Shown: positions 1,552 through 5,756 of the stretch, piece after piece
Layout of the letters: every line of letters starts with the position of its first letter
Numbering within the stretch: the first letter of the stretch is position 1
Source of the DNA: Weeksellaceae bacterium
GTDB taxonomy: Bacteria; Bacteroidota; Bacteroidia; Flavobacteriales; Weeksellaceae
DNA length: 35,468 bases
Direction of reading: 5' to 3'
Assembly (NCBI GenBank): GCA_022701545.1
Contig: JAKOOG010000402.1
Coordinates: 1-35,468 of the forward strand
Program-made: the position numbers and the translations under genes
The notes under the pieces: model-generated
What the model was told of the DNA's origin: nothing
Seen by the model: only the letters and a program-made list of their open reading frames with translations
Database searches by the model: none

Positions 1552-1574
1552 GATTTTTTTCTTATATAAAACGA

Positions 1575-1604
1575 AATGCCCCGGTGAAAACCGGGGCATT
1601 TTTT
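1575..1604 (+). terminator. Intrinsic terminator of the rpoC-DUF3467 unit
   Basis: AATGCCCCGG-TGAAAA-CCGGGGCATT followed by TTTT. Confidence 0.9.
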
Positions 1605-1910: not shown

Positions 1911-2561
1911 ATGGTAAATAATCAGTTTATTCTCAATAAATTCGGCTTTATGGGTGATAATTTCTTAAATGAACTGGATCGGCACGCCGTGATGACCCAT
2001 GTGAAGGCCAAGACCGAGATTGTAAGGGAAGGACAGAAGAATAAATTTGTTCCGTTCCTCATCAGCGGATCCATCCGTGTTTTTACATTGAATGATGGCC
2101 GGGAGCTGATTTACTACTATATCCGCAGGAACGACAGCTGCATGATGACCTTCTCATCCATCTTTACCGATTATACCAGCCGGGTGTATGCTGTAGCTGA
2201 AGAAGATTCTGAAATGATGCTTGTTCCGGTTTCCGTGATTCACGAATGGCTGATCCGTTTTCCTGAAATCAATAAGGTTTTTTATCATGAGTACGACAAA
2301 CGCTTTTCCGATGTCATGAGCATGGTAAACGATGCCGTATTCCACAGATTGGATAAAAGGGTTTTAAACTACATCCGGCAGCAGGTCTCCATTACCGGAA
2401 ACAATCCGATACGGCTTACCCACCGGGAAATTGCAGGAAATCTCGGGACTTCCCGTGAAGTCATCAGCCGGGTAATGAAAAAAATGGAAAATGAAGGAGA
2501 GCTTGTTCAGACCAAAGAAGGAATAAAAATCCCTGTAAATGAAAATGTTAGACAGGACTAA
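1911..2561 (+). CDS. Crp/Fnr family transcriptional regulator
   Basis: cNMP-binding-like N-terminus and a C-terminal HTH (LTHREIAGNLGTSREVISRVMKKMENEGELV). The ORF-track start at 1875 (TTG) overlaps a -7 box; ATG 1911 is preferred. Confidence 0.92.
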   Translation: MVNNQFILNKFGFMGDNFLNELDRHAVMTHVKAKTEIVREGQKNKFVPFLISGSIRVFTLNDGRELIYYYIRRNDSCMMTFSSIFTDYTSRVYAVAEEDSEMMLVPVSVIHEWLIRFPEINKVFYHEYDKRFSDVMSMVNDAVFHRLDKRVLNYIRQQVSITGNNPIRLTHREIAGNLGTSREVISRVMKKMENEGELVQTKEGIKIPVNENVRQD

Positions 2562-2612
2562 TCGTTTTTGTTAAATAATATTAATATCCTTATTGATAAA
2601 AACAATCCGGTC

Positions 2613-2628
2613 GGTGACTTTTATCACA
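2613..2628. promoter_or_regulatory. Candidate Crp-type operator GGTGA-CTTTTA-TCACA
   Basis: GTGA-N6-TCAC core palindrome. It is centred at 2620.5, about 41.5 nt upstream of the start predicted from the TAAGTTTG element. Confidence 0.65.
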
Positions 2629-2650: not shown

Positions 2651-2658
2651 TAAGTTTG
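2651..2658 (+). promoter_or_regulatory. -7 element TAAGTTTG of the DUF5777-cytochrome-YceI operon
   Basis: Exact TAnnTTTG match 20 nt upstream of the ATG at 2678. No TTTG at the expected -33 position. Confidence 0.6.
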
Positions 2659-2677: not shown

Positions 2678-3529
2678 ATGTGTATGACAAAAACTCTCTT
2701 ATTTTTGTCGATTTTCATCTCAGGTTTTGCCTTTGCACAGGAAGATCTGCTGAAAGATATCGACACCATCCAAACCAAAACCCCCGACACCCAACAACCC
2801 GCATTCAAGGCACTGCAGATCGTTACCGGTCAGTCTACCAAGCTTCCCGCAAAGAATGAGTGGTACATTGTGGTTGCCCATCGTTTCGGGGATGTAAGCA
2901 AAGGATTCAAAGACTTTTTCGGATTGGATGACGCCTCTACCAAGCTGGGGGTTATTTATGGGATTGCCGACGGTATTTCAGTAAGCCTTTCCAGGGAAAC
3001 GAATCTTAAAACTTTTGAAGGTGCCGTAAAATACAGGCTCGTCAAGCAAAGCGAAAATTTTCCGGTAGATGTTGCCGGATACAATGTCATGGCAGTGAAT
3101 ACAGACCTGAGCAAAGACAATTATCCGCATCTGCAGTTTGGCGACAGGCTGTCTTATCTTACCCAGGCTTTAATCTCACGAAGATTCAATGATAAATTCT
3201 CTTTGCAACTGACGCCTTCATATGTTCATAAAAATCTGTATGAGCCTTTGATTGAAGATAAAAACCAGTTTCTGGCAGGTTTGGGCGGCCGTTATAAAAT
3301 CTCCAAAAGGATTTCCATCAATGCCGAGTATTTTGTGAATTTCGACAATCACAGTTTCTACAAAAATCCGCTTTCCCTGGGGATGGATATAGAAACCGGG
3401 GGACATGTGTTCCAGCTTTTATTTACCAATTCCCAGCTTAATTCCGATATCGGGTATCTTACCAACGCCGCCGGAAAATGGGAAAAGGGCCAGATTTTCT
3501 TCGGGTTTAATCTTTACAGAGTATTTTAA
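2678..3529 (+). CDS. DUF5777-like outer-membrane beta-barrel protein
   Basis: Signal peptide (MTKTLLFLSIFISGFAFAQ), then alternating beta-strand protein (HRFGDVSKGFKDFFGLDDASTKLGVIYGIADGISVSLSRE). ATG 2684 is an alternative start. Confidence 0.8.
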   Translation: MCMTKTLLFLSIFISGFAFAQEDLLKDIDTIQTKTPDTQQPAFKALQIVTGQSTKLPAKNEWYIVVAHRFGDVSKGFKDFFGLDDASTKLGVIYGIADGISVSLSRETNLKTFEGAVKYRLVKQSENFPVDVAGYNVMAVNTDLSKDNYPHLQFGDRLSYLTQALISRRFNDKFSLQLTPSYVHKNLYEPLIEDKNQFLAGLGGRYKISKRISINAEYFVNFDNHSFYKNPLSLGMDIETGGHVFQLLFTNSQLNSDIGYLTNAAGKWEKGQIFFGFNLYRVF

Positions 3530-3531
3530 GT

Positions 3532-3870
3532 ATGAAAAAGTTAATATGTACCCTTTCAGCAACGGTTTTATTCACAGCCTGTGAGAGCAGAACCTATGAA
3601 GAAATCTCGGATAATACCCCCATTATACAGGTAGTAACCTACAACAAAGATGTTAAAGCGATTATTGATGGCAACTGTGTAAGCTGCCATTCGCCGGGAC
3701 CGCAGGCCCTCACGAATTATACCCAGGTGAAAAGCAACATCAACAGTATCATCGACAGGATAAGCCGTGCCAACGGAGATCCCCTGAAAATGCCGCAGGG
3801 CGGGAGCCTTTCGCCTGCACAAATCAATATCATCAACAAATGGAAAGCCGACGGGCTTCTCGAAAATTAA
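3532..3870 (+). CDS. Mono-haem cytochrome c-like lipoprotein
   Basis: Lipobox-like FTAC, one CxxCH haem motif (CVSCH) and a probable distal Met ligand (LKMPQGG). 2-bp gap from the previous gene. Confidence 0.85.
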   Translation: MKKLICTLSATVLFTACESRTYEEISDNTPIIQVVTYNKDVKAIIDGNCVSCHSPGPQALTNYTQVKSNINSIIDRISRANGDPLKMPQGGSLSPAQINIINKWKADGLLEN

Positions 3871-3880
3871 ATCCATTCCT

Positions 3881-4426
3881 ATGAAAAAGCTCATTTTACT
3901 TATAGCCGCCATACTTTTTGCCAACTTTACATTGGCGCAGAAATATGTGGCGAAAACAGGAAAAGTAACGTTCGAAGCATCGGTACCTTTATTTGAAGAT
4001 GTTTTCGCACAGGATGACAATAACGTAGCGGTAATCAACGCCGATACGGGGGAGTTTGCTTCAGTTTCCAACGTTAAGAATTTCCATTTCAAAACAAAAC
4101 TAATGGAAGAACACTTCAACGAAAGCTATGCGGAAACGGCAAAATTTCCCAAGACCACATTCAAGGGGAAGATCGTCAATTTCGACAAATCCAAACTTTC
4201 TTCATCGCCGCAGAAATATACGGTTCAGGGAACGCTGAATTTTCACGGTGTGGACAAAGCATACAATTCAACGGCGTCTCTTTATGCCAAAGACGGAAAG
4301 ATCTACATGTCCGGAGGATTTGTAGTACGGCCGGCAGACCATAAAGTGACCATCCCGAAAATGGTGACTAAAAAAATTGCTGAAAGCGTAAATGTCCAGT
4401 ATAACTATATCCTTTCAAAACAATGA
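3881..4426 (+). CDS. YceI family protein
   Basis: Signal peptide, then KTGKVTFEASVPLFEDVFAQDDNNVAVINADTGEFASVSNVKNFHFKTKLMEEHFNESYAETAKFPKTTFKG, typical of YceI-like lipocalin-fold proteins. Confidence 0.88.
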   Translation: MKKLILLIAAILFANFTLAQKYVAKTGKVTFEASVPLFEDVFAQDDNNVAVINADTGEFASVSNVKNFHFKTKLMEEHFNESYAETAKFPKTTFKGKIVNFDKSKLSSSPQKYTVQGTLNFHGVDKAYNSTASLYAKDGKIYMSGGFVVRPADHKVTIPKMVTKKIAESVNVQYNYILSKQ

Positions 4427-4950
4427 AAAAGATCATTTTACTCTTAGGCATATTTCTGAACATCGCCCTGTTATCCGCTCAGGAAAAAGCAAAATCGATC
4501 TACGATATTGCAAGAAGCGGGACCGTAGCAGAAGTAAAAGAACTGATGAAACAAAACCCTGACATCATCAACCAGACCAACGAAGGCGGATTTTCACCGC
4601 TTATCCTTGCCTGTTACAGGGGAAATGTTGAGGTTGCTAAATTTTTGATGGACCATGTAAAGGATATCAATTACAAAAGCCAGGAGGGGACAGCTTTATC
4701 CGGGCTTTCTGTGAAATACAACAGAGAGCTGGCAGAATATCTCCTTAGCAAGAACGCAAACCCCAATATCGCAGATGCTAGCGGATCCACCCCTTTATTC
4801 TGGGCAGTGAAATTCGGCAATAAAGAAATGACGGAATTGCTGCTGAAGCACAAAGCCGATAAAACCATCAAGGACGCTCAGGGAATGACGCCTTTTGAAT
4901 ACGCATTACAAACAAACAATAAAGAAATTATTAATCTGCTTAAAAATTAA
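4423..4950 (+). CDS. Exported ankyrin repeat protein
   Basis: Signal peptide MKKIILLLGIFLNIALLSAQ followed by ankyrin repeats (GFSPLILACYRGNVEVAKFLMDH; GSTPLFWAVKFGNKEMTELLLKHKAD). Overlaps the yceI-like stop by 4 bp (ATGA). Confidence 0.9.
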   Translation: MKKIILLLGIFLNIALLSAQEKAKSIYDIARSGTVAEVKELMKQNPDIINQTNEGGFSPLILACYRGNVEVAKFLMDHVKDINYKSQEGTALSGLSVKYNRELAEYLLSKNANPNIADASGSTPLFWAVKFGNKEMTELLLKHKADKTIKDAQGMTPFEYALQTNNKEIINLLKN

Positions 4951-4953
4951 CGA

Positions 4954-5727
4954 ATGAAAAAACTTTTACTTACTTTATCATTGGCTGCAGCTTCCTCATT
5001 CAGCGCGCAGCTTTTTTCCACAGGGACCGTTAGTCTCGGTTCGTCAGGAATGACTGTAAAAATGGTGACTTCTTCCACCAATGTTACATTGACGCTTACC
5101 GGACCTGATACAGCGTATCTGGGATTAGGCTTCGGCGGTACCGGAAGCAGTGGCGGTATGGGAAGCGGGATTGACGGATTTATTTATAATTCCAATTCCA
5201 CAAATACGACCAATCTGGATTATACTTTTGCCGGAGTCGGGGCAACACCTAATGCCGATGCATCACAGGATTGGACCATCAGTTCCAACACAACGGCCGG
5301 AGGAACCAGAACAATTGTAGCTACAAGATCCCTTTCAGGAGGAACAGGAGATACTGCGTTTACCAATTCAACAAGTTCCATCAATATTTTCTATGCGAAG
5401 GGACCAAGTCTTACATTAGCTAATAATTACCATTCCAGCAGAGGATATGCCGTTCTCACAAGATCTTCCGCTCTGGCAACCGGCGAAGTAGCGGCAGAAA
5501 GCAAAAAAACGGTGCTTTATCCAAATCCTGCCAAAGAAACATTTACCTTTAAAAATGTTGATAAAATTAGAACAGTGGATATTTATGAGTCTACAGGAAG
5601 AAAATTGAAGTCCGTAAAAGTGGACGGAAAAGAAGTCAATATTTCCGAACTGAAATCCGGAAATTACTATCTGGAAATTACTTTGAAAGACGGCTCAACC
5701 GTTTTTGAACAATTGATTAAAGAATAA
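4954..5727 (+). CDS. DOMON-like domain protein with T9SS type A sorting domain
   Basis: Signal peptide. DOMON-like pattern TAYLGLGFGG...GGMGSGIDGFIY...FYAKGPSLTLANNYHSSRG. C-terminal sorting domain VLYPNPAKETFTFKN...GNYYLEITLKDGSTVFEQLIKE. Confidence 0.85.
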   Translation: MKKLLLTLSLAAASSFSAQLFSTGTVSLGSSGMTVKMVTSSTNVTLTLTGPDTAYLGLGFGGTGSSGGMGSGIDGFIYNSNSTNTTNLDYTFAGVGATPNADASQDWTISSNTTAGGTRTIVATRSLSGGTGDTAFTNSTSSINIFYAKGPSLTLANNYHSSRGYAVLTRSSALATGEVAAESKKTVLYPNPAKETFTFKNVDKIRTVDIYESTGRKLKSVKVDGKEVNISELKSGNYYLEITLKDGSTVFEQLIKE

Positions 5728-5734
5728 AACGAAG

Positions 5735-5756
5735 GCCACTGCAAAGTGGCTTTTTT
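5735..5756 (+). terminator. Intrinsic terminator of the exported redox operon
   Basis: GCCACT-GCAA-AGTGGC followed by TTTTTT. Confidence 0.88.

Follow-up and report, generated by a model that had tools for sequence, protein, structure and literature searches.

A Weeksellaceae bacterium (assembly GCA_022701545.1) encodes five exported proteins in one row of genes which, with the gene for a Crp/Fnr-family regulator upstream, likely form a single transcription unit, to judge by their sequence. The exported set has the look of a so far undescribed system for moving electrons or haem across the outer envelope. With slightly less than even confidence, we read the operon as an inducible envelope electron-transfer module, which would end in a surface b-type cytochrome and employ an ankyrin protein as haem-loading helper. 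The window is the whole stretch of DNA that was analyzed (35,468 nt of contig JAKOOG010000402.1). Genes and proteins are referred to by letters: R (Crp/Fnr regulator), B (DUF5777 barrel), c (cytochrome), Y (YceI), A (ankyrin) and D (DOMON). The evidence comes from the sequence and consists of the gene order, the architecture of the promoter, the exclusivity of the regulator box, conserved haem-ligand residues, fold matches and export signals. The features are listed in Table 1.

Table 1. Features of the operon and its control region (positions in the window)
Feature	Position	Strand	Characteristics
R, Crp/Fnr-family regulator	1911..2561	+	HTH_Crp_2 5.7e-9, cNMP_binding 4.9e-8
Degenerate second half-site TTGATAAAAACAAT	2593..2607	.	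inverted repeat I5; 21 bp, or two helical turns, ahead of the main box
Crp-type operator GTGACTTTTATCAC	2614..2627	.	in the gap between R and barrel gene; centre about -42.5
Bacteroidota -7 element TAAGTTTG	2651..2658	+	TAnnTTTG match
B, DUF5777 outer-membrane beta-barrel with signal peptide	2678..3529	+	PF19089 7e-87
c, single-haem c-type cytochrome lipoprotein	3532..3870	+	lipobox Cys17, C49-x-x-C52-H53, distal Met87
Y, YceI-family lipocalin-like protein with signal peptide	3881..4426	+	PF04264 5.3e-9
A, exported ankyrin-repeat protein	4423..4950	+	Ank_2 3e-28
D, DOMON domain and type IX secretion C-terminal tail	4954..5727	+	candidate haem b ligands Met69, His160
Intrinsic terminator	5731..5754	+	10-bp stem, then T-run; -14 kcal/mol, z -3.9

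The genes and the exported proteins

The genes B, c, Y, A and D lie on the + strand and are separated by 2, 10, -4 and 3 nt (ORF coordinates). An earlier note on this DNA, made from the letters alone, had described the same five genes, and the ORFs match its order and gaps exactly. The families that it named agree with the Pfam matches, the DOMON assignment being secured via relatives and fold, and the export signals that it reported for all five proteins are visible by eye as an N-terminal signal or a lipobox. The sixth partner, R, had been overlooked. The prediction of one transcription unit is supported by a conserved promoter architecture (see below) and by the terminator. An antisense ORF of 183 aa (window 3568-4119, - strand) overlaps the c and Y genes; it is probably spurious, and gene calling by length can select it in place of both. 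A hairpin with a 12-bp stem (window 1574-1601), located between the end of rpoC/the 101-aa gene and R, likely separates R from the RNA polymerase operon.

B scores 291 bits against PF19089 (cut-off 23.1 bits). The true start is probably the ATG at 2684 rather than 2678, because the homologues begin with MTKTLLF. The predicted model has 12 strands and is KdgM/NanC-like, at low confidence (pLDDT 63), and a PDB sequence search with the barrel returned no match. Two residues, His 68 and His 243, are invariant in 97 of 97 homologues across Bacteroidota.

The cytochrome has weak Pfam matches to Haem_bd and Cytochrome_CBB3 and carries the motif CVSCH. In its family, Cys17, Cys49, Cys52 and His53 are present in 80/80 members and the distal Met87 in 79/80; some relatives have CX4CH instead of CXXCH. 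Y is above the curated PF04264 cut-off (37.0 vs 23.7 bits), and its profile matches solved YceI proteins, among them 5ixg and 1y0g. By analogy, Y would likely carry an isoprenoid such as menaquinone; some YceI members bind lipids without redox activity. In Cbp2D from Cellvibrio, YceI is fused to a cytochrome c, its YceI class binds ubiquinone-8, and the cytochrome hands electrons to an enzyme (PMC8981238).

D matches DOMON (PF03351) with an E-value of 5.5e-5 and 23.8 bits, and with 26.1 bits when scored alongside relatives, both under the curated cut-off of 32.7; 21 of 23 relatives match the same family at E<=0.01 (best 8.8e-12). The sorting tail is over the cut-offs for PF18962 (42.1 vs 27 bits, 1.1e-10) and TIGR04183 (38.4 vs 23). 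His160 and Arg125 are each found in 140/140 homologues of D and Met69 in 138/140, the other two having a Met two residues on. With identity down to about 25%, Met69/His160 is the only Met/His pair that is invariant across this set. Two T9SS proteins that at first clustered with D (L098 and L099) were removed, since they have only the tail in common with it and lack the ligands. Searched by sequence against the PDB, the DOMON profile returned WD-40 repeat artefacts and T9SS tails only, so that a fold search was needed. The AlphaFold model of D (pLDDT 79) was matched by Foldseek to the DOMON domain of DBH, the gamma subunit of ethylbenzene dehydrogenase (EBDH), subunit C of nitrite oxidoreductase (Nxr) and the cytochrome domain of cellobiose dehydrogenase (CDH) at probabilities of 0.99-1.00; 4zel, 2ivf_C and 1d7b reached 1.00, as did the C-terminal domain of RemA (T9SS tail). 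A Met and a His coordinate haem b axially in CDH-type (AA8) domains, and the same role is proposed for such a pair in CYBDOM proteins (PMC6881789, PMC10784544). D very probably binds haem, with Met69 and His160 as candidate ligands of haem b. The earlier note had predicted haem binding for the cytochrome and the DOMON protein, and for both this prediction is strongly supported by invariant candidate ligands and, at the level of models, by fold matches. In another family, longer DOMON proteins (425-501 aa) have additional repeats inserted ahead of the C-terminal tail, after the DOMON domain (L206:5218-6495, L207:5875-7266, L210:63-1568).

The regulator and its promoter box

R passes the cut-offs for a cNMP-type sensor domain (33.3 vs 27.5 bits) and for the Crp HTH (36.2 vs 27 bits). 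Its gene ends 116 nt upstream of the barrel gene on the same strand. The closest solved structure is 3dv8 (6.6e-23). The N-terminal cysteine cluster of Fe-S FNR-type proteins is absent from R, and among 39 homologues the only conserved cysteine is Cys77, which is invariant, lies in the effector domain and aligns with a Cys of 3dv8, a Eubacterium-type homologue.

The gap between R and the barrel gene contains a Crp-type operator, and this box is present in 121 of 124 R loci. Its strict form GTGACTTTWRTCAC occurs exactly once per genome in nine of the ten genomes searched, always in the gap that separates R from the barrel gene. In G035, a further strict site was rejected as an R target, as it adjoins unrelated genes. 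A wider R regulon was also considered and discarded: a looser box GTGACNNNNRTCAC is no commoner than its control, the reversed pattern, and the strict box alone stands out. At exactly 20 nt before the box, TGATAAAA is found in 95/119 loci; this second, degenerate half-site, placed exactly 21 bp upstream, occurs in most Chryseobacterium and is absent outside that genus. Some Chryseobacterium carry two operon copies, whole or partial (L260 and L279 in C. balustinum; L259, L293 and L295 in C. viscerum), and some of the duplicate-copy loci have variant boxes (GTGACTAATGTCAC, GTGACAAATATCAC).

A TAnnTTTG element lies 29-30 nt downstream of the box centre in 121/121 box loci, where 0.001 would be expected at a fixed offset; many of these loci belong to one genus and are not independent, but genera in which the region is otherwise different keep the same offset (L059-L074). 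The flavobacterial TAnnTTTG covers -12 to -5 (PMC9723704). This places the predicted transcription start at about 2663 and the box at about -42.5, which is the position of a class II activator. R is best read, from these sequence patterns, as a single-target activator that would be dedicated to this operon.

Conservation and gene neighbourhoods

DUF5777 occurs in 42 of 150 Weeksellaceae genomes and in 99 of 248 Bacteroidota genomes. We read 100 gene neighbourhoods, plus 80 further loci that are nearly all from Chryseobacterium. R-B-c-Y-A-D is the standard order in Weeksellaceae, kept throughout Chryseobacterium and three related genera, and the 80 extra loci have the same order with few exceptions. 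R adjoins the barrel gene in 38 of the 42 Weeksellaceae loci, and R, A and D co-occur, all three being present in 38 loci and none in four. Y and A overlap by -4 or -1 in 122/128 loci. This arrangement exceeds chance, since the order is kept in most of about 125 loci and the intergene distances are tightly kept.

Outside Weeksellaceae, 49/55 loci encode c and/or Y no more than three genes away from B and in the same orientation, usually as c-Y-B; in several of the remaining six, they adjoin B divergently. B thus recurs together with c and/or Y across Bacteroidota. The A-D pair is also found in further families of Flavobacteriales, at times by itself (L202, L203) and at times with A and D convergent (L206, L207); in the Flavobacterium-type loci L119, L158, L200 and L201 it adjoins B without R. 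Because B/c/Y and A/D occur separately, the operon joins two older modules. The earlier note had overlooked this origin from separately inherited modules. It had fixed conservation of the gene order past close relatives as a point on which its proposal could fail; on this point the proposal stands, for the whole order is found in several Weeksellaceae genera, and the sub-modules extend across the order and the phylum. On the whole, the note's interpretation is partly supported.

In other lineages, B has Rieske proteins beside it at L102 and L105, a plastocyanin that ends in a T9SS tail at L107, and NrfD with a 4Fe-4S protein and cytochrome c at L157 and L153. One-electron carriers dominate among the neighbours of B, an argument for a core role in electron transfer. 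In the last two loci (L157:4005-9132, L153:3986-9064), a DUF5777 subfamily member and a cytochrome c lipoprotein head an operon that continues with a protein having a Tat-type leader, a 4Fe-4S ferredoxin, an NrfD membrane subunit, an unassigned exported protein and a second cytochrome c; this is apparently a separate undescribed respiratory set. In a Flavobacterium-type locus (L123:6083-11722), B/c/Y follow a FecR anti-sigma gene and genes for an 844-aa TonB-receptor-like protein and a tRNA_anti-like protein. Such a FecR/TonB setting implies that control differs from that of the Crp/Fnr version.

Possible functions and relation to known systems

As an electron-transfer module, the operon would work as follows. 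When its signal is present, R would bind the box and switch on this one operon. Electrons from the respiratory quinone or a periplasmic donor would pass to Y, a possible quinone carrier, and/or to c, a lipid-anchored single-haem relay, and then to the outer membrane at the barrel B. A, a periplasmic ankyrin protein, would bind D, or haem for D, prior to export. D, a DOMON b-type cytochrome, would be sent to the surface or the medium by type IX secretion, receive the electrons at B and hand them singly to an outside acceptor. We infer the haem b in D, the quinone in Y, the path and direction of the electrons, the roles of A and B, the signal of R and the acceptor. This reading draws on the nearly invariant haem-c motif and distal Met, the invariant Met/His pair and fold matches of D, the one-electron carriers beside B elsewhere, the YceI-cytochrome fusion of Cbp2D and the co-inheritance of R, A and D. 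It counts against it that neither a catalytic partner nor a terminal acceptor is encoded within the operon. Passage of electrons or proteins through B is speculative because the barrel model is weak, and a surface cytochrome D would be optional, since B often occurs without it. In a wider form, which we regard as clearly doubtful, DUF5777 with a single-haem lipoprotein cytochrome (or Rieske protein or cupredoxin) and YceI would form a hitherto unrecognised conduit for electrons at the outer membrane, present in about 40% of the sampled Bacteroidota genomes, to which the Weeksellaceae version would add a secreted b-type cytochrome (DOMON) at the outer end, an ankyrin haem-loading chaperone and a single-target Crp/Fnr switch.

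An unlikely but serious competitor is haem handling, with D as a secreted haem carrier, B as an outer-membrane channel for haem or haem proteins, A as a periplasmic haem chaperone and R as a sensor of haem, iron or oxidative stress, while c would be a by-standing redox sensor or reductase. A and D remain a pair also away from the operon. The barrel operon of Flavobacterium-type genomes follows genes for a TonB-dependent receptor and a FecR-type anti-sigma factor, a pairing familiar from iron and haem uptake, and this context keeps the iron/haem explanation alive; the Chryseobacterium unit, however, has no TonB receptor. Six-coordination by Met/His, as predicted here, is typical of electron carriers and not of haem scavengers. 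The B/c/Y core mostly exists without A or D, so its central role is not to supply D with haem. The Campylobacter ankyrin protein Cj1386 binds haem via a Tyr and delivers it to catalase (PMC11442138). In A, Tyr65 is invariant (134/134 homologues) and may be the counterpart of Tyr57 of Cj1386.

It is improbable that the operon serves detoxification, where R would respond to NO, peroxide or a shortage of oxygen and the haem proteins of the envelope would remove or tolerate a reactive oxidant by peroxidase-like or NO-reacting chemistry. A Crp/Fnr regulator with one invariant Cys, one dedicated operon and an activator position would suit such a role, and YceI proteins as well as ankyrin/catalase pairs are often stress-linked. 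Yet haems that are six-coordinate, as predicted here, leave no catalytic site open, and Cys77 may not be a sensor, as it also aligns with a Cys in 3dv8. A link to denitrification is disfavoured: among 21 sampled genomes of the genus, NirK is above the cut-off in three, the present one not being among them, and NosZ in none.

That unrelated exported proteins share only a strong promoter is highly improbable: some lineages do have B accompanied by just one of c and Y, or A-D by itself, but the same pairs re-form across families and the phylum in varied order and orientation (c-Y-B, A-D-x-B-c-Y, convergent A/D), which is unexpected if the association were neutral. Least probable of all is an electron donor for secreted polysaccharide oxidation that stands in for cellobiose dehydrogenase/Cbp2D and serves LPMOs, for although the parts are functionally the same (YceI with cytochrome c as in Cbp2D, a CDH-like cytochrome domain), the operon has neither a carbohydrate-binding module nor a dehydrogenase, and an AA10 family search (PF03067) found none in this genome (87% complete).

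The electron-transfer reading has partial parallels in known systems. Cbp2D/Cbp2E of Cellvibrio japonicus (YceI X158 with c-type cytochrome X183/X132) likewise bring YceI and small c-type cytochromes together for a redox function outside the cell. Cbp2D, however, is one fused protein with a carbohydrate-binding module and is tied to cellulose and LPMO, and the pair lacks the barrel, ankyrin, DOMON and dedicated regulator found here. The CDH cytochrome domain (AA8) and CYBDOM proteins share with D the DOMON-type fold and an invariant Met and His about 85-100 residues apart, and haem b binding and extracellular single-electron transfer would be expected for all of them; unlike these, the D domain stands alone with its type IX tail, having no flavin dehydrogenase or cytochrome b561 attached. 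Cj1386, which delivers haem to KatA, resembles A in that both are small ankyrin proteins whose gene is paired with that of a haem protein, a predicted one in the case of A; its haem ligand is a Tyr, and A has an invariant Tyr. A differs from Cj1386 in being exported and in having a secreted DOMON protein as partner; the likeness covers the ankyrin repeats. MtrCAB-type porin-cytochrome conduits are alike in outline, with an outer-membrane barrel and cytochromes on both faces, but here the cytochrome is single-haem rather than multihaem, the DUF5777 barrel is unrelated and a YceI carrier is present; the operon is not a member of that type.

In the open-licence literature, no paper was found that names DUF5777 or links these families, and likewise no described function for the five-family combination, as the earlier note had supposed. 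Two papers that contain both YceI and DOMON mention either term a single time. An iron study in Riemerella was set aside as a link: ankyrin and YceI genes appear in its table of expression changes, but at different genome places. The parts are of known kinds; their assembly is new. DUF5777, YceI, exported ankyrins and bacterial DOMON proteins are four widespread families without settled roles, which are now brought together in one testable unit with a switch. If electron transfer is true, Bacteroidota would have an outer-envelope electron route that is unlike the multihaem conduits and ends in a T9SS-exported b-type cytochrome; if haem is what is handled, DOMON and ankyrin proteins would gain a role in haem supply. 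On either reading, R and its single box offer a ready reporter for finding the signal.
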